DNA of 55,944 nt from Rhodospirillaceae bacterium (lineage in GTDB: Bacteria; Pseudomonadota; Alphaproteobacteria; Bin65). The position numbers and the translations under genes are program-made. The notes below the pieces were generated by a model. It was not told the origin of the DNA. It was given only the letters and a program-made list of their open reading frames with translations, and did no database searches. Every line of letters starts with the position of its first letter. Within the stretch, counting starts at the first letter, position 1. Location of the stretch: NCBI GenBank assembly GCA_026709535.1, contig JAPOST010000017.1:1-55944 (forward strand). Direction: 5' to 3'. This document shows positions 28,195 to 55,656 of the stretch, piece after piece.

Positions 28195-28683
28195 TCAATC
28201 GATTTCTTCCGTCTTGTATACACCCCATATCGACGTGCGTCGTACCCAACCAGTCTTTCCGGCAGCGCTAACCCGACACCAGGCTTTGACGCACTTCCGG
28301 ATTTTGGCAATCACGCCAGCTTGGGCTCGGGCAACCGGGGTGGCCTCCGCCGGCTTGCGGCGCAGCGTTCGTGTTTGCCGATCAATCAACGCAGTCCGCT
28401 TGCCGGAAAGATTGCTGACATGGATCCAGCCAACCGTGCCCCAGCGATCCCGAACGCGGCGCCAATTGTCCAGATCCCGGATCACTTCCATCGGCATGCC
28501 GCGGCGCTTGTAGATCCAGTTGATCGGATACTGTGTGCCCGGTCCCGCGCGCAGGTTGACTGTGGCGAAACGAAGGGACACGAAGCGGGGAACCTTCAAC
28601 TCTGAGGCTGCGACCGAGCCCGGCATCGCCACGGGGAGCAGGACCGAGAAAGCCACCGTCAGTGCAAGGGTTTGCATGCGCAT
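28195..28683 (-). CDS. Exported SH3-domain protein
   Basis: A 162-residue periplasmic protein. Signal peptide MRMQTLALTVAFSVLLPVAM with likely cleavage after SVAA-S near residue 28. Two bacterial SH3-like repeats follow: one with FATVNLRAGPGTQYPINWIY and WRRVRDRWGTVGWIHVSNL, the second with AQAGVIAKIRKC and WCRVSAAGKTGWVRRTSIWG. Such domains usually bind peptidoglycan. ATG 28683 is chosen since the open frame above it is hydrophilic and unlike a leader. It is convergent with the Rieske gene. Confidence 0.82.
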   Translation of the reverse strand: MRMQTLALTVAFSVLLPVAMPGSVAASELKVPRFVSLRFATVNLRAGPGTQYPINWIYKRRGMPMEVIRDLDNWRRVRDRWGTVGWIHVSNLSGKRTALIDRQTRTLRRKPAEATPVARAQAGVIAKIRKCVKAWCRVSAAGKTGWVRRTSIWGVYKTEEID

Positions 28684-28826
28684 GACATCAGTATGCGCGC
28701 CGCGGCAAACCACGTCAATTGACTGGCAGTCCCCGCACTGGACATCGCTATGGCCGCTTGATAACCCATTTGCACGCGGGAGCAGTGGTAATGACTCTAA
28801 TTCCCGCAAAATGAATGAGGAGCCTC

Positions 28827-29813
28827 ATGGCGCAGGAAAAGCCGGTCGTCGTCGTTACCCGCAAGCTACCCGACCCGATCGAGACCCGAATGATGGAACT
28901 GTTCGATACACGGCTGAACCTTGATGACCAGCCGATGGCGAGCGCGGATCTGATCGCTGCCTGCAAGACAGCCGACGTGCTTGTGCCGGCGGTTACCGAT
29001 CGGATCGACAAGGGAATCCTGGCCCAAGCCAGCCCGCGTTTGCGCCTGATCGCCTCTTTCGGGACGGGCGTCGACCACATCGATTTGGCGTCGGCGCGCG
29101 AGCGCGGCATTACGGTCACCAACACGCCCGGAGTCCTGACCGAAGATACAGCCGACATGACGATGGCCCTGATCCTGTCGGTCTCGCGCCGCCTTGCCGA
29201 GGGCGAGCGCCTCATCCGCTCCGGCGAATGGCAGGGCTGGGGCCCTACCACCATGCTGGGACACCGTATCTGGGGCAAGCGGCTGGGCATTCTGGGCATG
29301 GGCCGGATCGGCCAGGCGGTGGCGCGCCGGGCCAAGGGATTTGGCCTGTCGGTGCATTACCACAATCGGCGACGGGTCGATCCGGCAATCGAGGCGGATC
29401 TGGAAGCGACCTATTGGGAAAGCTTGGACCAAATGCTTGCCCACATGGATATCCTGTCGGTCAACTGTCCACATACGCCGGCAACCTATCACCTGTTGTC
29501 GGCGCGGCGCTTGAAGCTGCTGAAACCGCACGCAATCGTTGTCAATACCGCACGGGGCGAGGTGATCGACGAAAACGCATTGACCCGCATGCTGGCGAAC
29601 AACGACATTGCGGGTGCCGGACTGGATGTGTTCGAACACGAACCGGCGATCAACCCGAAATTGCTGGGTCTGGATAATGTCGTCCTCCTGCCTCACATGG
29701 GCTCGGCGACGATCGAGGGCAGGATCGACATGGGCGAAAAGGTCATCGTCAATATCAAGACTTTTGTCGACGGTCACAAACCGCCAGATCGAGTCATCGA
29801 AGCGCTGGTCTAG
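28827..29813 (+). CDS. D-isomer-specific 2-hydroxyacid dehydrogenase
   Basis: A 328-residue NAD(P)-dependent enzyme that interconverts 2-oxoacids and D-2-hydroxyacids, likely glyoxylate/hydroxypyruvate reductase. The Rossmann motif GILGMGRIGQAVARRAKGFG is near 150. The catalytic set is visible: Arg in NTARGEVID, Glu in AGLDVFEHEP and His in LLPHMGSAT. LIASFGTGVDHIDL is typical too. ATG 28827 has GAGGAG six bases upstream, so the four extra in-frame codons above it are not used. Confidence 0.9.
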   Translation: MAQEKPVVVVTRKLPDPIETRMMELFDTRLNLDDQPMASADLIAACKTADVLVPAVTDRIDKGILAQASPRLRLIASFGTGVDHIDLASARERGITVTNTPGVLTEDTADMTMALILSVSRRLAEGERLIRSGEWQGWGPTTMLGHRIWGKRLGILGMGRIGQAVARRAKGFGLSVHYHNRRRVDPAIEADLEATYWESLDQMLAHMDILSVNCPHTPATYHLLSARRLKLLKPHAIVVNTARGEVIDENALTRMLANNDIAGAGLDVFEHEPAINPKLLGLDNVVLLPHMGSATIEGRIDMGEKVIVNIKTFVDGHKPPDRVIEALV

Positions 29814-30822: not shown

Positions 30823-31293
30823 CTAAGCGGCGAGAACACGATCATCCTTATGGTTCCTGATCCAGTCTTTCACCCAATCGACGCCATCGTCCTCCGGGAT
30901 CGATCCGGAACTGGCGTCATGGCAAAAGATTTCACCCACCCGCCTGGCGCCGCAATCCTGCAGCGCCTTGTCGAATTTCTTGCCACCATAGTTGAACGTG
31001 TCAGAGTAGGTCATGTCACCCATGGAGAACACACCGTAGCGAATATCATTCAGGTCGGGCTTCCGTTCGGTGAGGCCATTATACAGCGTCATCGCGTTAT
31101 CCGGAACATCGCCTTGACCATAGGTTGAGGTTACGATCAGGAAATCTCCGCCGCCGTCGAAGATGGAAATGTCCAGGTCATCCATGGCCTCGACATCCAC
31201 ACTATGGCCAAGTTCAGCCAAGGTGTCGCTCATCTCTTCCGCAACCATTTCGGCGGTACCGGTCATGGTGCCTACAAGAATCTTCAGTTCCAC
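30823..31293 (-). CDS. Flavodoxin (MioC/CPR-like), divergent from boxR
   Basis: A 156-residue flavodoxin, a small FMN electron carrier. The phosphate loop GTMTGTAEMVAEEM begins near residue 8, and TSTYGQGDVPDNAM (about 55-68) is the flavin-contacting stretch seen in MioC and cytochrome P450 reductase flavodoxin domains; FSMGDMTYSDTFNYGGKKFD forms the next contact. GTG 31293 follows AGGAG. It is divergent from boxR, and its promoter overlaps the TGCA-type operator found again before boxC. I infer that it is induced with the box genes and delivers electrons to BoxB. A role unrelated to benzoate, such as biotin synthesis for MioC types, cannot be excluded. Confidence 0.88.
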   Translation of the reverse strand: MELKILVGTMTGTAEMVAEEMSDTLAELGHSVDVEAMDDLDISIFDGGGDFLIVTSTYGQGDVPDNAMTLYNGLTERKPDLNDIRYGVFSMGDMTYSDTFNYGGKKFDKALQDCGARRVGEIFCHDASSGSIPEDDGVDWVKDWIRNHKDDRVLAA

Positions 31294-31369
31294 GGATACT
31301 GCTCCTGCATTTTATCGGCGCCGGTCGCCACCGCCGCTGTCCGCGACCTGCCTGTCTGGACCGCCCGGA

Positions 31370-31398
31370 AACATAGTCTTGCCTTTCATCAAAGACAA
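31370..31398 (-). promoter_or_regulatory. Predicted flavodoxin promoter
   Basis: Read on the minus strand: -35 TTGTCT (31393-31398), 17-base spacer, -10 TATGTT (31370-31375). Each box matches the sigma-70 consensus at four of six positions. The -35 box abuts the boxR operator at 31398. Confidence 0.45.
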
Positions 31399-31408
31399 GC
31401 ATTATATT
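31379..31408 (+). promoter_or_regulatory. Predicted boxR promoter
   Basis: -35 TTGCCT (31379-31384), 18-base spacer, -10 TATATT (31403-31408). The -10 box lies inside the operator, so BoxR could repress its own gene. Transcription would begin near 31415, which makes ATG 31411 too early and supports ATG 31447 for boxR. Confidence 0.5.
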
Positions 31409-31415
31409 GCATGCA
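31398..31415. promoter_or_regulatory. Predicted BoxR operator at the flavodoxin/boxR promoters
   Basis: AGCATTATATTGCA (31398-31411) followed directly by TGCA (31412-31415). It matches the boxC site TGCACTATATTGCA at 12 of 14 positions. The BoxR operator described in Azoarcus is TGCA-N6-TGCA; here the first half site is AGCA. It overlaps the boxR -10 and abuts the flavodoxin -35. Confidence 0.6.
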
Positions 31416-31446
31416 AGACTTGGAACTCAGGCGCTGTCACTGGCAA

Positions 31447-32391
31447 ATGGTCTTCTCGGTACAACCGTCCAATCTCGCGCGCTCAAGTTCCATCCAGAAC
31501 CGACGCGCTTCAAGCGATAGTAGCGACGGACTTGACAGTTATCTCAGGCAGTTGGGCGAGCGTGTGCGCGCGGCGCGCGCAAGGCGCGGCATGTCTCGCA
31601 AGATCCTGTCTCAGGCATCAGGCGTATCGGAGCGTTATCTGGCGCAACTGGAAACCGGAAAGGGAAACATTTCCATTGCGCTATTGCGCAAGATCGCCAG
31701 CGCCATGAGCATCCCACTGGTCGATCTGGTGCGCGAAGGGGATGAACGGACTATCGACCTGACCTTACTCGTCCGAAAACTGGAGCGGTTGGGGCCAGAC
31801 GAAGTGGCGATTGCCAATCGGGTCTTGAACAACGCTCTGGGTCTGAGAGAAACGGCGCGCCGCATGGACCGTATTGCTCTGATCGGCCTGCGTGGCGCCG
31901 GGAAAACCACCCTTGGCGCCGCCTTGGCGGATCGTCTTTCCGTGCCCTTTGTCGAATTGGCACGCGAAATCGAACGAACGGCTGGCATGTATATCGACCA
32001 TATCTTCGAGTTGTCCGGCCAGGCTGCTTACCGTCGGTATGAGCGCCGCGCTTTGGAAGATACGCTGGCAGTTCATCCGGAGTGCGTCATTGCGTCTGGC
32101 GGCAGCCTTGTTTCCGAACCGGAAACATACGAACTGTTGCTTGATCAATGCTTCACGATCTGGCTTCGCGCTGCCCCCGAGGAACATATGAACCGGGTCC
32201 GCGACCAGGGCGATACTCGCCCGATGGCGGAAAGCAGCGAGGCGATGGCGGACCTCAAGCGCATCCTGGAAACCCGTCATGCGCTGTATGCCAAGGCAGA
32301 TATCGCCGTCGATACCTCGAACTGCTCCGTGTCGGCGGCCCTGGACGCGCTGGTCGGTGCTCTGGACAACGTGCGACGCGCCGAAGCATGA
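31447..32391 (+). CDS. boxR: Benzoyl-CoA-responsive regulator BoxR
   Basis: A 314-residue repressor with an N-terminal XRE-type helix-turn-helix (about 35-92: GERVRAARARRGMSRK, SGVSERYLAQLETGKGNISI) joined to a shikimate kinase-like domain (about 140-305) with an intact P-loop IALIGLRGAGKTT. YRRYERRALEDT and MNRVRDQGDTRPMA are typical of BoxR and BzdR, which bind benzoyl-CoA through this domain. ATG 31447 fits the predicted promoter; ATG 31411 is inside the operator. The first 35 residues are an N-terminal extension rich in Ser and Asn. boxC begins 89 bases downstream under its own operator, and the flavodoxin gene is divergent. Confidence 0.9.
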   Translation: MVFSVQPSNLARSSSIQNRRASSDSSDGLDSYLRQLGERVRAARARRGMSRKILSQASGVSERYLAQLETGKGNISIALLRKIASAMSIPLVDLVREGDERTIDLTLLVRKLERLGPDEVAIANRVLNNALGLRETARRMDRIALIGLRGAGKTTLGAALADRLSVPFVELAREIERTAGMYIDHIFELSGQAAYRRYERRALEDTLAVHPECVIASGGSLVSEPETYELLLDQCFTIWLRAAPEEHMNRVRDQGDTRPMAESSEAMADLKRILETRHALYAKADIAVDTSNCSVSAALDALVGALDNVRRAEA

Positions 32392-32397
32392 TATTTC

Positions 32398-32428
32398 TTG
32401 CTTCCTTGCAAAGATGCACTATATTGCA
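32398..32428 (+). promoter_or_regulatory. Predicted boxC promoter with BoxR operator
   Basis: -35 TTGCTT (32398-32403, weak), 16-base spacer, -10 TATATT (32420-32425). The operator TGCACTATATTGCA (32415-32428) is an exact TGCA-N6-TGCA and covers the -10 box; a further TGCA lies at 32407-32410. BoxR binding here would block RNA polymerase until benzoyl-CoA is present. Confidence 0.7.
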
Positions 32429-32480
32429 GTAATTGTTCGGGCGGAACCTCAAGCATTGCCGCGGTGCACGGGAAGCGAAT

Positions 32481-34136
32481 ATGGCCGATAACATCATCAC
32501 CTATGACCGGGAACCCGGGGACTACAAGCATTGGTCGATCGACGTCGATGGAGACGTAGCTCGGCTGACCCTCGACGTTGCCGAGGATGGCGGCCTGATA
32601 TCCGGCTACAAGCTGAAGCTGAATTCCTACGATCTGGGTGTCGATATGGAACTCGCCGACGCCCTGCAACGGATCCGGTTCGAACATCCGAACGTCAAGG
32701 TGGTTGTCATCACCAGCGGCAAGGACCGTGTATTCTGCGCCGGCGCCAACATCAACATGCTGTCGTCGTCCGAGCACTGGTGGAAGGTGAATTTCTGCAA
32801 GTTTACCAACGAAACCCGGAATGGCCTCGAAGACAGTTCGGAACATTCCGGAATCAAGTCCATTGCTGCTGTCAACGGAGCATGTGCCGGTGGTGGTTAC
32901 GAGTTGGCATTAGCCTGCGACGAGATTGTGATGGTCAACGATCGGTCATCGACCGTCAGCTTGCCGGAAGTACCGCTTCTTGGCGTCCTGCCCGGCACGG
33001 GCGGTCTCACTCGCGTGACCGACAAACGCAGGGTCAGGCGCGATCTGGCGGATGTGTTTTGCACCATGTCTGAAGGCGTCCGCGCCGATCGCGCCAGGGA
33101 ATGGAGGCTGATCGACAACCATGCGCCGCCCGCCAAGTTCGACGAACTCGTCGCCAACCGTGCTCGGGCGCTGGCGTCGGAATCCAACCGTCCGAAAGAT
33201 GCCAAGGGAATTGCGCTGACCCCCCTCAATCGGACGCTCGACGACGGCGGTTATCACTACGAGTTCATTGATGTGGCGCTGAAGAGCGCCGATCGGACGG
33301 CAACGCTGACGGTCCGGGGTCCGTCGGCAGATCAGCCTGCAGGAGCCGCCGCAATCGAAGAAGCGGGTGCCGACTGGTGGGCCCTGCAGATGACCCGCGA
33401 GCTTGATGACGCCATCCTGATGCTGCGGACAAACAACACCGATATCGGCCTTTGGTTACTGAAGACGGAAGGTGACGCCGACAGGATTCAGGCCGTTGGC
33501 GCATCACTGATTGCAAACAGGGAAAACTGGTTCGTCAATGAGACGACCCAGTACCTGAAGCGCACGCTGGCGCGCCTTGACGTGTCGTCCCGTAGCCTTT
33601 TCGCCATCGTCGATGCCGACACCTGCTTCACTGGAATTCTGGCCGAACTGCTGTTGGCCGCCGACCGGTCCTACATGCTGGACGATCGGGAAAATCCGAA
33701 AAACTCGCCGACCATCATCCTGGACGATACAAATTTCGGCCTGTTCCCCATGCCCAACGGTCTGACGCGGCTGACCGCGCATTATCAGGATGACGTCGAT
33801 GCCGAAGCGGCTGTCAAGGCGAAGATCGGCGACGCCATCGGGCCGGCAGAAGCACTGAAGCTGGGCCTGGTGACTTATGCGCCGGACGATCTGGACTGGA
33901 AAGACGAAGTCCGGATCGCCATCGAAGAGCGATCCAGCCTGTCGCCAGACGCACTCACCGGCATGGAAGCCAGCTTGCGTTTCGGCGGCAAGGAAACCAT
34001 GGCAACGAAGGTTTTTGGGCGCCTGACTGCCTGGCAGAACTGGATATTCATCAGGCCCAATGCGATCGGTAACCGGGGAGCGTTGAAGCTCTACGGCACC
34101 GGTACCAAACCTTCTTACAAGTGGGAGCGTGTCTGA
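32481..34136 (+). CDS. boxC: Benzoyl-CoA-dihydrodiol lyase / epoxide hydrolase BoxC
   Basis: A 551-residue crotonase-superfamily enzyme that opens the 2,3-epoxybenzoyl-CoA ring and releases formate, giving 3,4-dehydroadipyl-CoA semialdehyde. The first crotonase domain is clear: VVVITSGKDRVFCAGANINM (about 75-95), SIAAVNGACAGGGYELALAC and SLPEVPLLGVLPGTGGLTRV. A second, more divergent crotonase-like half follows, with SLFAIVDADTCFTGILAELL near 375. Length matches known BoxC. ATG 32481 has GGGAAG upstream. It lies under a BoxR operator and precedes boxB by 100 bases. Confidence 0.93.
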   Translation: MADNIITYDREPGDYKHWSIDVDGDVARLTLDVAEDGGLISGYKLKLNSYDLGVDMELADALQRIRFEHPNVKVVVITSGKDRVFCAGANINMLSSSEHWWKVNFCKFTNETRNGLEDSSEHSGIKSIAAVNGACAGGGYELALACDEIVMVNDRSSTVSLPEVPLLGVLPGTGGLTRVTDKRRVRRDLADVFCTMSEGVRADRAREWRLIDNHAPPAKFDELVANRARALASESNRPKDAKGIALTPLNRTLDDGGYHYEFIDVALKSADRTATLTVRGPSADQPAGAAAIEEAGADWWALQMTRELDDAILMLRTNNTDIGLWLLKTEGDADRIQAVGASLIANRENWFVNETTQYLKRTLARLDVSSRSLFAIVDADTCFTGILAELLLAADRSYMLDDRENPKNSPTIILDDTNFGLFPMPNGLTRLTAHYQDDVDAEAAVKAKIGDAIGPAEALKLGLVTYAPDDLDWKDEVRIAIEERSSLSPDALTGMEASLRFGGKETMATKVFGRLTAWQNWIFIRPNAIGNRGALKLYGTGTKPSYKWERV

Positions 34137-34236: not shown

Positions 34237-35664
34237 ATGTCGATCAACTACGCCGAAAAAATCCCAAACAACGTCGATCTCGGATCGGACCGCCAACTCC
34301 AGCGCGCTCTCGAGCGGTGGCAGCCGGCCTTCCTGAACTGGTGGGGCGAAATGGGCCCGGACGGCGATTTCCAGGCCAAGGACGTCTATCTGCGTACCGC
34401 GACGTCCGTCGACGCCAAGGGCTGGGCGACATACGGCCATGTGAAGATGCCGGATTATCGCTGGGGAATCTTTTTGGCGGATCAGGTAAAGGACCGGACG
34501 ATCGGCTTCGGCGACAATTTTGGCCAGCCGGTCTGGCAGCAGGTGCCCGGCGAGTTCCGATCGGATCTGCGTCGCCTGATCGTCACGCAGGGCGACACCG
34601 AACCGGCGTCCGTCGAGCAGCAACGCATGCTCGCCTATACCTGCCCGTCGCTCTACGACATGCGGAACCTGTTCCAGGTCAACGTGGAAGAGGGTCGGCA
34701 CCTCTGGGCGATGGTCTTCCTGCTGCACGCCTATTTCGGGCGTGATGGCCGCGAAGAGGCCGAAGAATTACTGGAACGACATGCCGGCGACATCAACAAT
34801 CCGCGGATCCTGACCACGTTCAACGAGCCCATCGACGACTGGATGTCGTTTTTCAGTTTCACCTATTTCACGGATCGCGACGGCAAGTTCCAGCTCAAGA
34901 TGCTGGCCGAAAGCGCCTTCGATCCGCTATCCCGGACCTGCCGGTTCATGCTGACGGAAGAAGCCCATCACATGTTCGTGGGCGAGACCGGCTTGGGGCG
35001 CGTGATCAAGCGGGCGCTCGAAGTGATGAAGGAGTTGAACACCGACGACCCGCAGCGAATCCGCGATCACGGCGCGATGGATCTGGGTCTGGTCCAGAAA
35101 TATATCAATTTCTGGTATTCCTCATCTCTTGACCTCTTTGGAGCGGATCAGTCCACGAACGCAGCGGCATACTTTGCCAACGGTATCAAGGGTCGGCCAG
35201 ACGAAGACAAGTTCGACGATCACATCGAAGCCGAAACGACGTTTTCTCTCGAAGAGCCGACGGAAGACGGCAAAGACGTTCAGTCGATCGAGGTGCCAAC
35301 ACGGAACGCCATGAATCTCTTGGCGCGACAGGGATATTCGCGGGATTGCGATATCGGTGTCGTGCGCTGGAACAGGATGATCAGAAAGGCTGGCGTTGAC
35401 TTCGACATCAGGCTGCCATCCGACCGTTTCCGCAGAACCGTCGGGCCTTTCGCTGGTTTCCACTTCGCACCGGACGGATCGCCGATCGGCAAGGATGCAT
35501 ATGACTCCAATCTGGACGACTGGATTCCGTCCGAAACCGACAAGGCCCATGTGAAGGCCCAGATGAAGCAGGTGACCGAGCCCGGCAAAATGGCGGCGTG
35601 GATCGCCCCGCCGGACCGCGGCATCAACAACAACCCGGTAGACCATGACTACGTGAAGCTTTAG
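34237..35664 (+). CDS. boxB: Benzoyl-CoA 2,3-epoxidase subunit BoxB
   Basis: A 475-residue di-iron oxygenase that epoxidises benzoyl-CoA with O2. Candidate iron ligands are Glu122, Glu152, His155 (EEGRH), Asp213, Glu242 and His245 (TEEAHH), each two positions later than the ligands known for Azoarcus BoxB, so the active site looks intact. BoxB needs two electrons, normally from the reductase BoxA; no boxA gene is in the window. The start has AAGGAAA upstream. A terminator follows 20 bases after the stop, so the boxC-boxB transcript appears to end here. Confidence 0.95.
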   Translation: MSINYAEKIPNNVDLGSDRQLQRALERWQPAFLNWWGEMGPDGDFQAKDVYLRTATSVDAKGWATYGHVKMPDYRWGIFLADQVKDRTIGFGDNFGQPVWQQVPGEFRSDLRRLIVTQGDTEPASVEQQRMLAYTCPSLYDMRNLFQVNVEEGRHLWAMVFLLHAYFGRDGREEAEELLERHAGDINNPRILTTFNEPIDDWMSFFSFTYFTDRDGKFQLKMLAESAFDPLSRTCRFMLTEEAHHMFVGETGLGRVIKRALEVMKELNTDDPQRIRDHGAMDLGLVQKYINFWYSSSLDLFGADQSTNAAAYFANGIKGRPDEDKFDDHIEAETTFSLEEPTEDGKDVQSIEVPTRNAMNLLARQGYSRDCDIGVVRWNRMIRKAGVDFDIRLPSDRFRRTVGPFAGFHFAPDGSPIGKDAYDSNLDDWIPSETDKAHVKAQMKQVTEPGKMAAWIAPPDRGINNNPVDHDYVKL

Positions 35665-36888: not shown

Positions 36889-37117
36889 CTGTTCCAGGGG
36901 CGCGCCTTTCCTCTCCTGGCCTTCACGACACTGCCAGCATGATACAGCGCGATGCCGGCCGAAGAGACGGCCATTCCAGCGCCTGATTTACACTGGATCT
37001 GGACGAAGGACAGCCTCACGCCGATCACCGCAATCCAGGGCACGCCAGATGTCTGCCAACGACAGGTCCCATTCACATTTCCCCTGACACGGTTGAACCC
37101 GCTGCCGTCACGACTTG

Positions 37118-37133
37118 TGCAAAGCGGTTTGCA
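37118..37133. promoter_or_regulatory. TGCA-N8-TGCA repeat upstream of the reductase gene
   Basis: TGCAAAGCGGTTTGCA lies 71 bases before the reductase ATG. It resembles the BoxR half-site pair but with an 8-base rather than 6-base spacer and no TATATT core. It may be chance. Confidence 0.25.
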
Positions 37134-37203
37134 TTACGTTCCGCTTGGGCTAACCTGTCATCATTCTTTCACCCTTGGCCCGCATTCACGGCGAATAGAT
37201 GGC

Positions 37204-38514
37204 ATGACGCTTCAGGTCGCGATTGTCGGCTCCGGACCGAGTAGCTTTTATACGGCCGAGGCCTTGTTGCGTGCGGTAGAGAAAGTTGAAATTGATATCG
37301 TCGAGCGGCTGCCAACACCTTATGGCCTGATCCGTGGTGGCGTTGCTCCGGATCATGCGAAGACAAAGAATGTTTCGCGGTCTTACGAGAAGACTGCACG
37401 CGATCCTCGGGTTCGTTATTTCGGCAATGTGACTTTGGGCCCGGATGTCAGTCTGGATGATCTCCGGAGCATGTATGACGCGGTGGTTCTCGCCACTGGC
37501 GCTGCAGTAGATCGTCCGCTCGGCATACCGGGTGACGACAAGCCTGGTGTTTTGGGTGTGGCAGAATTCGTTGGGTGGTACAACGGTCATCCGGATTTCC
37601 GCGATCTCGATCCACCACTCGATATCCAGGCTGTAGTCGTCATTGGCGTCGGCAATGTCGCTGTGGATGTTGCGCGTGTCCTGACCAAGACCCCGGCGGA
37701 GATGGCGGCGACGGACCTGACCGACTACGCCGCCGCCGCGATCCATGCAGCACCCATTCGCGATGTTTACGTGTTCGGCCGACGTGGTCCTCATCATGCG
37801 AAATTCAGCAATGTCGAACTGAGGGAAATGGGGCAACTGGAAAACAGCGCGCCAGTGCTTGATCCGGCACAATTGCCTGCCGAACTGCCGCAAGATTGGG
37901 CCGAAACGTTGAACAGCCGCGACCTCCGCATAAGTCAACGCAATCTGTCTACACTTCACGATTTCGCGGTGATGGACGCTGGGACGCGCCAGAAAAGGGT
38001 TCATTTTTCCTTCTACGCCAATCCTGTCGAAGTTCTCGGTGACGAACGGGTCGTGGGCATTCGCCTTGAAAGAACTCGAATCGAAGACGGGCGTGCGGTC
38101 GGGACCGGCGAGACATTCGAGGTGGCGTGCGGCATCGTCATCCCGGCTATCGGCTATCGCTCGGATCCCATCGACGGAGTGCCGTTTGAACAGGGTCGCT
38201 CCAAAAACGTTGACGGCCGGATCAATAAGGGTCTGTATGCCGTTGGCTGGATCAAGCGCGGACCGTCAGGCGTCATTGGATCGAACAAGCCGGATGGCTA
38301 CACCGCCGCGCATCAGATTGTTGAAGATTGTGGCGACGGTGACGGCAAGCCCGGACGCATGGCACTGGAGACGCACTTGAAGGCAAACAATATCCGCGTC
38401 GTGACATTCAGTGACTGGAAGCAAATCGAGGCCGCAGAAGAGTCCGCGGCCACAGCACCGGCGCCGCGCCGGAAGTTCGACCGGATTGCCGACATGCTGG
38501 CATTGCTGGAATAG
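37204..38514 (+). CDS. Ferredoxin/flavodoxin-NADP+ reductase, adrenodoxin reductase type
   Basis: A 436-residue FAD enzyme that moves electrons between NADPH and ferredoxin or flavodoxin. The N-terminal FAD motif is VAIVGSGPSSFYTAEALL, with RLPTPYGLIRGGVAPDHAKT typical of adrenodoxin reductase and mycobacterial FprA. The NADPH site is VVVIGVGNVAVDVARVL near 140, and VFGRRGPHHAKFSNVELREM near 180 is a family mark. No extra ferredoxin domain. ATG 37204 directly precedes the FAD strand. It is 151 bases from korA on the same strand and 1.5 kb from boxB, so it may feed the flavodoxin of the box cluster or serve KorAB. Confidence 0.9.
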   Translation: MTLQVAIVGSGPSSFYTAEALLRAVEKVEIDIVERLPTPYGLIRGGVAPDHAKTKNVSRSYEKTARDPRVRYFGNVTLGPDVSLDDLRSMYDAVVLATGAAVDRPLGIPGDDKPGVLGVAEFVGWYNGHPDFRDLDPPLDIQAVVVIGVGNVAVDVARVLTKTPAEMAATDLTDYAAAAIHAAPIRDVYVFGRRGPHHAKFSNVELREMGQLENSAPVLDPAQLPAELPQDWAETLNSRDLRISQRNLSTLHDFAVMDAGTRQKRVHFSFYANPVEVLGDERVVGIRLERTRIEDGRAVGTGETFEVACGIVIPAIGYRSDPIDGVPFEQGRSKNVDGRINKGLYAVGWIKRGPSGVIGSNKPDGYTAAHQIVEDCGDGDGKPGRMALETHLKANNIRVVTFSDWKQIEAAEESAATAPAPRRKFDRIADMLALLE

Positions 38515-38665
38515 CGAATAGTTCACAGATGGCTGACTGCCTTGAGCCTGAAGTATTTGGAACGCTGATGGTTTGGGACTACATTTTTGCGCCGGAAGAC
38601 AGCGTATCCGGTCAGGGGTGGCCCTTGCCGGGGCAAGGGGCCGACAAAGCAGGAGGAAGGAGCCG

Positions 38666-40522
38666 ATGGAAGGCGGCGCAGTAGCGGCTCAATCCAGTCG
38701 CCACGAAGTGACGGATGCGGTTGTGCGGTTCGCTGGTGATTCCGGCGATGGAATGCAATTGACCGGAACCCAGTTTACACAAGCGACGGCCATGGCCGGT
38801 AATGATCTGGCGACATTCCCGGATTTTCCAGCCGAAATTCGCGCGCCTGCCGGCACGACATATGGGGTATCTGCATTCCAGATTCACTTCGGCTCCAAGG
38901 TTATTAGAACATCTGGCGACGAAATCGATGTGCTGGTCGCCATGAACCCGGCTGCGCTGAAAACCAATATCGACGATTTGCGCCGTGGCGGCCTTGTCAT
39001 TCTGGATACGGGCGCCTTCACGGCCCGAAACCTGAGCAAGGCAGGATATGAAACCAGCCCGCTGGAGGACAAAAGCCTGGAAGGCTACCGAATCCTCGAG
39101 ATCGACATGTCGCGCATGACGGTAGAGGCCGTGAAGGATCATGGCCTTGGCAACAAGGATGCCCTGCGCTGCAAGAACATGTGGGCCCTGGGCCTCATCG
39201 ACTGGCTGTACGCCAGGGATCGAACCATCAACGAAAACTGGCTTCGGCAGAAATTCGAGAAATTTCCGGAAGTGGCGGAAGCCAATATCGCAGCACTGAA
39301 TGCCGGTCATGCATTCGGGGAGACAGCGGATTTTCCGACAGAGTTCGGCGCAGCATACGTGGCGCCGGCCCGTATCGAGCCAGGAACCTATCGGGCGCTG
39401 ACAGGCGCGGAAGGAGCTGCAATGGGGCTGGTCGCTGGCGCCAAGCTGGCAGGCCTGCCCATGCTGTTTGCCGGCTATCCTATTACGCCTGCATCGGCGC
39501 TGTTGCATACTCTTGCGCCGCTCAAGGATTTTGGCGTCACAACGTTTCAGGCCGAGGATGAAATTGCCGCAATTTGTGCGGCCATCGGCGGTTCGTATGC
39601 TGGCGCGTTGGGCGTGACATCAAGTTCCGGACCCGGCATCGCACTGAAGACCGAAGCGCTCGGCCTCGCCATCGCCACCGAACTGCCGCTGGTGGTTGTC
39701 AACTCCCAGCGCGGAGGACCGTCGACGGGCTTGCCGACAAAGACCGAGCAGTCGGACCTGTATCAGGCCGTCTATGGCCGAAACGCCGATTCGCCTTTGG
39801 CGGTCATCGCATGCCATTCGCCGGGCGATGCCTATTACGCGGCGATCGAGGCGTGCCGGATTGCCGTGCGGTACATGACGCCGGTCATCTTCCTGACCGA
39901 CGGCTATATCGGCAACGCTTCCGAACCCTGGCGTATTCCGGATTTCGAGGAACACACGCCCTTCCCTGTTCGATTTCGGACCGATCCGGAGGGCTACAAG
40001 GTCTATGAACGCAATCTGGAAACCTTGGCGCGCGCTTGGGTGAAGCCCGGTACTCCCGGCCTGCTCCACCGCATCGGTGGCATCGAGAAAGATCACCTGA
40101 CGGGTAACATCTCCTATGATCCGGAAAACCATCAGAGAATGACTGATGCCCGCCGCGCCAAGATCCTGGGCATCGCCAAGGATATTCCGGCACAGGAAGT
40201 CGATCATGGTCAAAATGGCGGTGAGATCGCTGTGGTCGGCTGGGGTTCCACCTACGGGCCTATCAGCCGCGCAGTTTCCGGCATGCGCGCCAACGGTCAC
40301 GATGTTTCCCACATCCACATCCGGCACATCTGGCCGCTGCCGGAAAATTTGGGTGAACTGTTGCGGAGCTACAAGACCGTGATCGTGCCGGAAATGAATA
40401 CGGGGCAGTTGGTCACTGTGTTGCGAAGCGAGTATCTGGTCGATTGCAAGCCCGTGAACAAGGTGAACGGCAAGCCGTTCCGCATTGTTGAAATCGAAGA
40501 CGCCATCCAGGCTCATCTGTAG
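38666..40522 (+). CDS. korA: 2-oxoacid:ferredoxin oxidoreductase, fused gamma-alpha subunit
   Basis: A 618-residue subunit of a 2-oxoacid:acceptor oxidoreductase, most likely for 2-oxoglutarate (giving succinyl-CoA, CO2 and reduced ferredoxin). The N-terminal gamma domain (about 15-195) starts VVRFAGDSGDGMQLTGTQFT; the pyrimidine-binding alpha domain (about 225-470) has MLFAGYPITPASALLHTLA and SQRGGPSTGLPTKTEQSDL; a C-terminal domain II follows. No ferredoxin-type cysteine cluster is present, as in the oxygen-tolerant mycobacterial KorAB type. ATG 38666 has AGGAGGAAGGA upstream. korB follows after 29 bases. Confidence 0.88.
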   Translation: MEGGAVAAQSSRHEVTDAVVRFAGDSGDGMQLTGTQFTQATAMAGNDLATFPDFPAEIRAPAGTTYGVSAFQIHFGSKVIRTSGDEIDVLVAMNPAALKTNIDDLRRGGLVILDTGAFTARNLSKAGYETSPLEDKSLEGYRILEIDMSRMTVEAVKDHGLGNKDALRCKNMWALGLIDWLYARDRTINENWLRQKFEKFPEVAEANIAALNAGHAFGETADFPTEFGAAYVAPARIEPGTYRALTGAEGAAMGLVAGAKLAGLPMLFAGYPITPASALLHTLAPLKDFGVTTFQAEDEIAAICAAIGGSYAGALGVTSSSGPGIALKTEALGLAIATELPLVVVNSQRGGPSTGLPTKTEQSDLYQAVYGRNADSPLAVIACHSPGDAYYAAIEACRIAVRYMTPVIFLTDGYIGNASEPWRIPDFEEHTPFPVRFRTDPEGYKVYERNLETLARAWVKPGTPGLLHRIGGIEKDHLTGNISYDPENHQRMTDARRAKILGIAKDIPAQEVDHGQNGGEIAVVGWGSTYGPISRAVSGMRANGHDVSHIHIRHIWPLPENLGELLRSYKTVIVPEMNTGQLVTVLRSEYLVDCKPVNKVNGKPFRIVEIEDAIQAHL

Positions 40523-40551
40523 AGACCCTGTCACCCGTAGAGAGGCGACCG

Positions 40552-41583
40552 ATGAACGAAGTGATCCAACCGGCATTGAAGGCGAAGGACTACGCCACCA
40601 ACCAAGAAGTACGCTGGTGTCCCGGCTGCGGTGACTACGCCATCATCAAGGCTGTACAGAAAACGATGGCCGATATCGGCGCGGACCCGGCAAACACGGT
40701 GTTCGTCTCGGGCATCGGCTGTGCCGCGCGGTTCCCGTACTACATGGAGACTTTCGGCTTTCACACCATCCATGGCCGGGCACCGTCGTTCGCCACAGGC
40801 ATCAAACTGGTGAATCCGGACCTGGACGTCTGGGTTGTTGGCGGCGACGGGGACGGGCTCTCCATCGGCGGTAATCACACGATGCACGCCATCCGGCGCA
40901 ACGTCGATATAACCTATCTGCTGTTCAACAACGAGATCTACGGGCTGACAAAGGGTCAGTACTCGCCGACATCCCGCCGGGGAACACGGTCCCCTTCCAC
41001 CCCGGATGGCTCCATCGATTCACCGGTCAACGCACTCAGCTTTGCGCTTGGCGCGAATGCCCGCTTCGTCGCCCGCGGAATCGACCGGCGTCAGGATCAC
41101 CTGCCCGGCGTCCTCGCCCGCGCCCACTCCCATAAGGGCTGCTCATTCGTTGAGGTGATCCAGAACTGCATCGTCTACAATGACGGTGCTTTCGAGCATT
41201 TCACCGAGAAGGACGTAAAGGCCGATACACAGATCGAGTGCGTCCATGGCGAGTTGTTGCTCTTCGGAAAGGACAAGAAAAGGGGGCTGCGCTTGAACCA
41301 TGACAGCCTGGAACTGGAAACGGTGATTATCGGCGAAAACGGTATCACGGAAGACGACATCATTGTTCACGACGAAACCAACCGCACGATCGCTGGCGCG
41401 CTTGCCCGAATGGAACCGCCGCATTTCCCGATGGCCATCGGGGTCCTGTATTGCGATCCGGCGGACCAAAGCTATGAGAAGGCCGTGCTTCGTCAAAACA
41501 GAGCCGTCGCCGAAAAGGCAACGACCAAAGGCGACATGAATGCCCTGTTGCGCCGTGGCGCAACCTGGGATGTAGCAACTTAG
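40552..41583 (+). CDS. korB: 2-oxoacid:ferredoxin oxidoreductase beta subunit
   Basis: A 343-residue thiamine diphosphate-binding subunit. WCPGCGDYAIIKAVQKTM is near residue 23, the Mg-diphosphate site is VGGDGDGLSIGGNH, and YLLFNNEIYGLTKGQYSPTS follows. Cysteines for one [4Fe-4S] cluster include those in WCPGCG and the one in SGIGCAARFPYYME. The later part (GVLYCDPADQSYEKAVLRQN) is normal for KorB. It pairs with korA. In organisms with anaerobic benzoyl-CoA reductase, this enzyme type recharges ferredoxin for aromatic ring attack; a similar service to the aerobic box enzymes would be new. Confidence 0.9.
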   Translation: MNEVIQPALKAKDYATNQEVRWCPGCGDYAIIKAVQKTMADIGADPANTVFVSGIGCAARFPYYMETFGFHTIHGRAPSFATGIKLVNPDLDVWVVGGDGDGLSIGGNHTMHAIRRNVDITYLLFNNEIYGLTKGQYSPTSRRGTRSPSTPDGSIDSPVNALSFALGANARFVARGIDRRQDHLPGVLARAHSHKGCSFVEVIQNCIVYNDGAFEHFTEKDVKADTQIECVHGELLLFGKDKKRGLRLNHDSLELETVIIGENGITEDDIIVHDETNRTIAGALARMEPPHFPMAIGVLYCDPADQSYEKAVLRQNRAVAEKATTKGDMNALLRRGATWDVAT

Positions 41584-55098: not shown

Positions 55099-55656
55099 TC
55101 AGACCCGCGGCCGGCGCGCGCGCTCGGGACACGCGGCGATCCAGTTGCAAAGGGCTTCCGTTACCCGAACCGTCATTTCACCGAGGGGCAGGTTGACGCT
55201 TTCCACGACGATATCGGATTCAGCATAGATCGGATTCCGGACCGCCATCAAGTCGGACAGGATTTGCCGCGCATTGCCATCTTTCAGCAAGGGGCGGTCA
55301 TTGCGTCGGCTCACCCGTTCCACCAGCGTATCCAGATCGGCGTTCAACCAGATCGAGATGCCGCGCAACTTTATCAGAAGACGCGTTTCCGGGCCCATGA
55401 AGGCGCCGCCGCCAGTTGCCAGAACATGCGGTTTGCCATCCAGCAAGCGGGCGATCACCTTGCGCTCGCCATCTCGGAAAGCGGCCTCGCCATGCTGCTC
55501 AAAAAAATCGCTGATGCTGCTGCCGGCGGCCGCCTCGATTTCAGCGTCGGCGTCGACGAACGGCAAATCAAGCTGTTTGGCCAGACGGCGACCTACAGCC
55601 GATTTGCCGACGCCCATCAGGCCGACCAGGACGATGGTCCGCTCAATCCGGGCCAA
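55099..55656 (-). CDS. aroK: Shikimate kinase
   Basis: Phosphorylates shikimate with ATP in aromatic amino acid synthesis. The 185-residue protein shows the P-loop IVLVGLMGVGKSAVGRRLA, the acidic VDADAEIEAAAGSSISDFFE, FRDGERKVI, and VLATGGGAFMGPETR. The only in-frame start is TTG 55656, since a stop codon lies eight codons upstream; AGGGAAAAGG precedes it. aroB follows at once. The remaining 288 bases of the window upstream of it show no gene. Confidence 0.95.
   Translation of the reverse strand: MARIERTIVLVGLMGVGKSAVGRRLAKQLDLPFVDADAEIEAAAGSSISDFFEQHGEAAFRDGERKVIARLLDGKPHVLATGGGAFMGPETRLLIKLRGISIWLNADLDTLVERVSRRNDRPLLKDGNARQILSDLMAVRNPIYAESDIVVESVNLPLGEMTVRVTEALCNWIAACPERARRPRV

Follow-up and report, generated by a model that had tools for sequence, protein, structure and literature searches.

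The box locus in the 55,944-nucleotide stretch of Rhodospirillaceae DNA analyzed here (the window) carries boxC and boxB but no boxA, and a flavodoxin gene lies divergent from boxR (Table 1). We consider it likely that BoxR co-induces boxC-boxB and this flavodoxin, which would replace BoxA as the electron donor of the epoxidase BoxB. Within this explanation, control of the flavodoxin, boxR and boxC by BoxR operators is predicted with high confidence, and the supply of electrons to BoxB by the flavodoxin is rated as fairly likely.

Table 1. Features of the box locus and its predicted regulatory sites (positions in the window).
Feature	Position	Strand	Description	Support or remark
Flavodoxin	30823-31293	-	GTG start, 156 aa, MioC/YqcA/cindoxin-like	PF00258 104 bits, 8e-30
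Degenerate auxiliary operator (predicted)	31366-31381		core ATAGT	31 bp upstream of the flavodoxin/boxR operator
Flavodoxin promoter (putative)	31370-31398	-	-35 TTGTCT (31393-31398), N17, -10 TATGTT (31370-31375)	inferred
Candidate boxR promoter	31379-31408	+	TTGCCT (31379-31384)-N18-TATATT (31403-31408)	9/12, weak consensus match
BoxR operator 2 (predicted)	31397-31412		AAGCATTATATTGCAT	14-mer of the preliminary description, 31398-31411
boxR	31447-32391	+	XRE-type HTH and shikimate-kinase-like domain	NF006015 399 bits, cut-off 204; HTH_3, SKI
Auxiliary operator, boxC side (predicted)	32384-32399		AAGCATGATATTTCTT, 10/16	30 bp upstream of operator 1
boxC promoter (putative)	32398-32425	+	TTGCTT (32398-32403)-N16-TATATT (32420-32425)	TTGC and TATATT columns conserved
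BoxR operator 1 (predicted)	32414-32429		ATGCACTATATTGCAG	14-mer of the preliminary description, 32415-32428
boxC, 2,3-epoxybenzoyl-CoA dihydrolase	32481-34136	+		TIGR03222 903 bits, cut-off 712
boxB, benzoyl-CoA 2,3-epoxidase (diiron)	34237-35664	+		TIGR03225 749 bits, cut-off 499
FprA/adrenodoxin-reductase-type NADPH reductase	36952-38514	+		1lqt FprA 5.5e-96, 1cjc adrenodoxin reductase 1.7e-90

BoxC and BoxB both score above the cut-offs of their family models, and the regulator encoded beside them shows the XRE and shikimate-kinase-like architecture of the BoxR family. Its start is probably the ATG at 31447, the counterpart of ATG 5950 in a related locus (L003). A separate shikimate-kinase-like gene (55099-55656, minus strand), 23 kb from boxR, matches the C-terminal domain of BoxR at 37%. 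The nearest solved chains to the product of the divergent gene are the flavodoxin 2m6r, MioC (2hna) and cindoxin (4oxx, 5.7e-21), and the FMN loop motifs T-G-(T/S)-A-E, TSTYGQGD and GD..T are conserved in 10 homologues, identifying it as a flavodoxin. A D-2-hydroxyacid dehydrogenase gene (28815-29813, plus strand), about 90% identical in congeners, is found beyond the flavodoxin in several of them.

The preliminary description of this DNA had proposed two near-identical BoxR operators, one before boxC and one between the flavodoxin and boxR. Both sequences are present and differ at 2 of 14 bases, the left half of operator 2 reading AGCA in place of TGCA. The bare form TGCA-N6-TGCA occurs twice in the window against 1.4 copies expected, the other copy lying at 28663; as this is not significant, it was dropped as a search form and the longer string shared by the two sites was used instead. 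This string, WGCAYTATATTGCA, has exactly two copies in the 3.67 Mb genome, both at these sites, where 0.014-0.033 would be expected (second-order Markov model or composition), and its reversed control has none. The pattern (T/A)GCA(C/T)TATATTGCA, suggested earlier for a genome scan, likewise matches at these two places only. The BoxR/BzdR motif published for Betaproteobacteria is ATGCACTATAGTGCAT (Suvorova and Gelfand 2019, PMC6449761). Operators 1 and 2 match this consensus at 14 and 13 of 16 positions, respectively, with half-sites 6 nt apart, and are the best and second-best of all 16-mers in the window. Two further near matches in the genome, on contigs C109 and C135, score 11/16 and 12/16.

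Phylogenetic footprinting agrees with the predicted operators at boxC and between the flavodoxin and boxR, and hence with the autoregulation and flavodoxin co-induction that the preliminary description had put forward. In all of the 19 alphaproteobacterial genomes in which the flavodoxin is divergent from boxR, this one included, the gap between the two genes contains an operator matching 12-14 of 16 bases, and none of 300 shuffles of each gap was as good. Upstream of boxC, an operator of at least 12/16 is present at 22 of 24 loci of BoxR-bearing genomes; at four boxC loci with an operator, the flavodoxin-boxR pair is 8-10 kb off or on another contig. The two loci without it are L073 (G037), where a single promoter may serve both boxR and boxC, and the boxA-type L080. 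Conversely, none of nine boxBC genomes lacking BoxR has a boxC operator, their best sites (8-10/16) being at chance level. As a background, 10 sites of at least 12/16 fall outside the marked gaps in the 441 kb of these loci. The 13-base form of the operator matched 21 of 191 genomes, 18 of which carry BoxR, and its reversed control matched none. In the operator-centered alignment, the palindrome columns are conserved on both sides. The additional TGCA reported to follow operator 2 is present at 31412-31415, but it is private to this genome, congeners reading ATA(T/G/A).. there, and it was rejected as a part of the operator because it is not conserved in that alignment.

In the known pathway, the electron supplier of BoxB is BoxA, an NADPH reductase with FAD and two [4Fe-4S] clusters (PMC4498308). 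BoxA (TIGR03224), and with it the canonical BoxAB epoxidase, is absent from this genome, where the best match reaches 23 bits against a cut-off of 459, and no BoxA was found in six congeners. By the same search, 9 relatives and, among 30 further boxB-bearing genomes, 19 have a BoxA above the cut-off. The genomes are mostly drafts and the source genome is 96% complete; the absence of BoxA therefore relies on the agreement among seven congeners.

At none of the box loci examined do boxA and the flavodoxin occur together. G007, G008 and G009, all from the same family, each carry two BoxB types on separate contigs, one with boxA and the other with flavodoxin-boxR. A flavodoxin homologue (E < 1e-29) is found in 19 of 28 relatives that have boxB and lack boxA, in 3 of them at a distance from the box genes, and in none of the five relatives with solely a boxA-type locus (G051, G067, G079, G163 and G177). 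The presence of the flavodoxin tracks that of boxB (Fisher p = 4e-17, or 5e-13 when one genome of the own genus is kept), and the flavodoxin-boxR pair is conserved even where boxC-boxB is located elsewhere. In two boxA-less genomes from an independent, phylum-wide draw (G359 and G384), the gene order is boxC-boxB-flavodoxin-boxR; the flavodoxin directly follows boxB on the same strand, in the slot that boxA occupies in a relative like G472. The BoxB proteins of these two genomes are nested in a BoxA-type clade of the BoxB tree. On the well supported branches of this tree, the flavodoxin label must change four times or more, so the electron partners of BoxB seem to have been swapped more than once. 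It is reasonably probable that a BoxR-controlled flavodoxin together with a stand-alone NADPH reductase replaced the iron-sulfur protein BoxA more than once in Alphaproteobacteria, in G359 and G384 in the boxA slot itself. The flavodoxin would then be in the BoxR regulon because these box loci are without BoxA.

The loss of BoxA is not always compensated by this flavodoxin. Neither partner is present in eight or nine of the relatives with boxB and without boxA and in nine rhizobial-type genomes (family f145), so BoxB is evidently served otherwise in some genomes. No ferredoxin or reductase was found beside boxB in the genomes with neither partner, where the neighbors tested were AMP ligases, DUFs and peroxiredoxin. 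Three large rhizobial-type genomes (G337, G219 and G392; loci L130, L131 and L132) carry boxC-boxB and boxR without boxA and the flavodoxin. Two BoxA-bearing genomes have a member of the flavodoxin family at a distance from their box genes. At one locus (L087, G074:C308), boxA is flanked on one side by a 69%-identical BoxB and on the other, where the contig ends, by the truncated terminus of a second, divergent BoxB; G074 also carries the flavodoxin elsewhere in its genome. At another locus (L126, G088:C93; 8667-9098 and 9265-10041), a gene of about 260 aa with a weak match to the BoxB model lies divergent from a second flavodoxin homologue (38%), the two possibly forming another flavodoxin-diiron oxygenase pair.

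A flavodoxin in this role would need a reductase, and a possible one is the FprA-type protein encoded downstream of boxB, whose frame is long, with homology beginning at about residue 85. It is of the same type as FprA and adrenodoxin reductase, and its link to the flavodoxin is neighborhood within the genus. KorA/KorB-type 2-oxoacid oxidoreductase genes (38573-41583, plus strand) come after it, and congeners (L062-L066) have likewise kept both the FprA-type and the KorAB genes downstream of boxB; in other families, the FprA-type gene is not near boxB. Control of the FprA-type and KorAB genes by BoxR was rejected, as no BoxR operator precedes them, the best 16-mer near the FprA-type gene scoring 10/16. 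The FprA-type gene having no operator and not being near boxB in other families, the reductase is the weakest step of the explanation.

These neighbors also bear on an alternative in which BoxR represses the flavodoxin, yet the protein serves a benzoate-induced need other than BoxB, for example by accepting electrons from the KorAB-type enzyme, or under oxidative or iron stress as the ring is oxidized. In its favor, flavodoxins can act as carriers in many settings, boxB is followed by the FprA-type and KorAB genes in the own genus, and three genomes have the flavodoxin family but no boxB. However, beyond this genus the flavodoxin is still found with boxR/boxB where neither KorAB nor FprA is nearby; in G359 and G384 it comes immediately after boxB, in the slot of boxA; and at box loci its presence is inversely related to that of boxA. 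We regard such a separate need as unlikely and favor BoxB as the partner of the flavodoxin.

The promoter boxes at both operators are weak by consensus, and their positions are inferred from sequence. The TTGC and TATATT columns of the boxC promoter are conserved in the 15-row operator-centered alignment, and TATATT falls inside operator 1, in line with the earlier proposal that this site covers the boxC -10 box. Operator 2 had been described as covering the boxR -10 box and abutting the flavodoxin -35 box; the latter overlaps the left edge of the site, and a boxR -10 box at 31403-31408 is possible. In most relatives, the left side of this site is AAGC, not ATGC. AAGC corresponds to the TTG of the -35 box on the flavodoxin strand (TTGTCA, TTGTCT, TTGAAA), and 13 of 19 loci have TTG-N17-TAT (TATCTT, TATGTT or similar) at an unchanged distance from the operator. 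Operator 2 thus appears to be imperfect because AAGC doubles as the TTG of the -35 box, and the overlap together with the spaced TAT suggests that the flavodoxin promoter incorporates the operator. The operator of several congeners also falls between the two boxes of a possible boxR promoter (TTGATG-N17-TATAGT in L018); the window is without a -10 box of this type, and its private additional TGCA is that very change. A 9-bp inverted repeat, CTTGTCTTTGATGAAAGGCAAG, at 31378-31399 (minus strand) spans the flavodoxin -35 box and the spacer and was flagged as terminator-like.

BoxR/BzdR sites nearly always occur more than once, at distances of several helical turns (Suvorova and Gelfand, PMC6449761), and averaged consensus scores point to a second, weaker site at each promoter. 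Over the 19 flavodoxin-boxR loci, the mean score peaks at -31 (7.5 versus a background of 3.9), a peak that is indistinguishable from the conservation of the -10 box; at this position the window scores 7/16 and relatives up to 14/16. On the boxC side, the average has one further peak at offset -30, where the site of the window overlaps the boxR stop codon. The spacing of 30-31 bp, about three helical turns, is kept in relatives. Multiple sites are thus a property of the family average, the window's own copies being weak (10/16 and 7/16).

A further reading is that the site beside the flavodoxin serves boxR autoregulation only, with the flavodoxin on its own constitutive promoter outside BoxR control; the start of boxR is about 35 bp away from the site and that of the flavodoxin 104 bp. 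Evidence against this reading is the coincidence of the conserved AAGC with the flavodoxin TTG, followed by TAT at N17, in 13 of 19 loci, and the retention of the flavodoxin-boxR pair where boxC-boxB lies elsewhere, which co-regulation would explain; we consider the reading quite improbable. Binding by a different regulator, or chance A+T-rich promoter sequence, is hardly credible: the sites do overlap -10/-35 type sequence, and TGCA-N6-TGCA alone is no rarer than chance in the window, but the sites are rare genome-wide, match the published BoxR logo, depend on BoxR for their presence and have palindrome columns conserved on both sides.

In the proposed mechanism of BoxR control, BoxR dimers would occupy operator 2, with the weaker site 31 bp to its left, and operator 1, with the weaker site 30 bp upstream. 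Bound there, BoxR would obstruct the -35 box of the flavodoxin, the boxR promoter and the -10 box of boxC. Upon accumulation of benzoyl-CoA, BoxR would be released, and the flavodoxin, BoxR and BoxC-BoxB would be made together. Benzoyl-CoA as the inducer is assumed here by analogy with the sister regulator BzdR of Azoarcus, for which it has been demonstrated (Durante-Rodriguez 2019, PMC6678401). The flavodoxin would pass electrons to the diiron epoxidase in the place of BoxA, its own electrons probably coming from an FprA-type NADPH reductase such as that at 36952-38514.

The putative operators resemble those of BoxR/BzdR in Azoarcus and other Betaproteobacteria (PMC6449761; PMC6678401; Valderrama 2012 as cited there) in their TGCA-N6-TGCA palindromic core, their location upstream of boxC and boxR and their multiple sites several helical turns apart; the regulator, too, is of the same XRE and shikimate-kinase-like type. 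Unlike in the betaproteobacterial boxCBA clusters, an operator is found here at a divergent flavodoxin, and the passages on the regulon in these sources include no flavodoxin. The benzoate-CoA ligase gene, in contrast to the betaproteobacterial regulon, lies here on another contig (C118) without an operator (best site 10/16), and its control by BoxR in this genome was rejected; in the boxA-type genome G177, an operator does precede this gene.

Like BoxA, the flavodoxin belongs to a box locus under predicted BoxR control, and its role, the delivery of electrons to BoxB, is presumed to be the same. Unlike BoxA, which combines FAD and two [4Fe-4S] clusters, it is a small FMN-type protein for which a separate reductase is needed. 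Cindoxin is a flavodoxin dedicated to one catabolic oxygenase, P450cin. It belongs to the same flavodoxin family (PDB 4oxx) but works with a cytochrome P450 instead of a diiron epoxidase and has no link to BoxR. No paper linking a flavodoxin to BoxB was found in the open-licence literature.

Beyond the preliminary description, the present analysis adds a locus without BoxA, which points to the likely job of the flavodoxin, and a weaker operator at both promoters. Published work classes box clusters that lack BoxA as incomplete and regards this lack as an impediment to the pathway (PMC10803450). If the flavodoxin does the job of BoxA, many alphaproteobacterial box clusters would be complete, the BoxR regulon would be larger by one member, and the diiron epoxidase would have an exchangeable electron supply. 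A simple genomic rule to predict aerobic benzoyl-CoA degradation would then be boxB with boxA, or boxB with a flavodoxin next to boxR.
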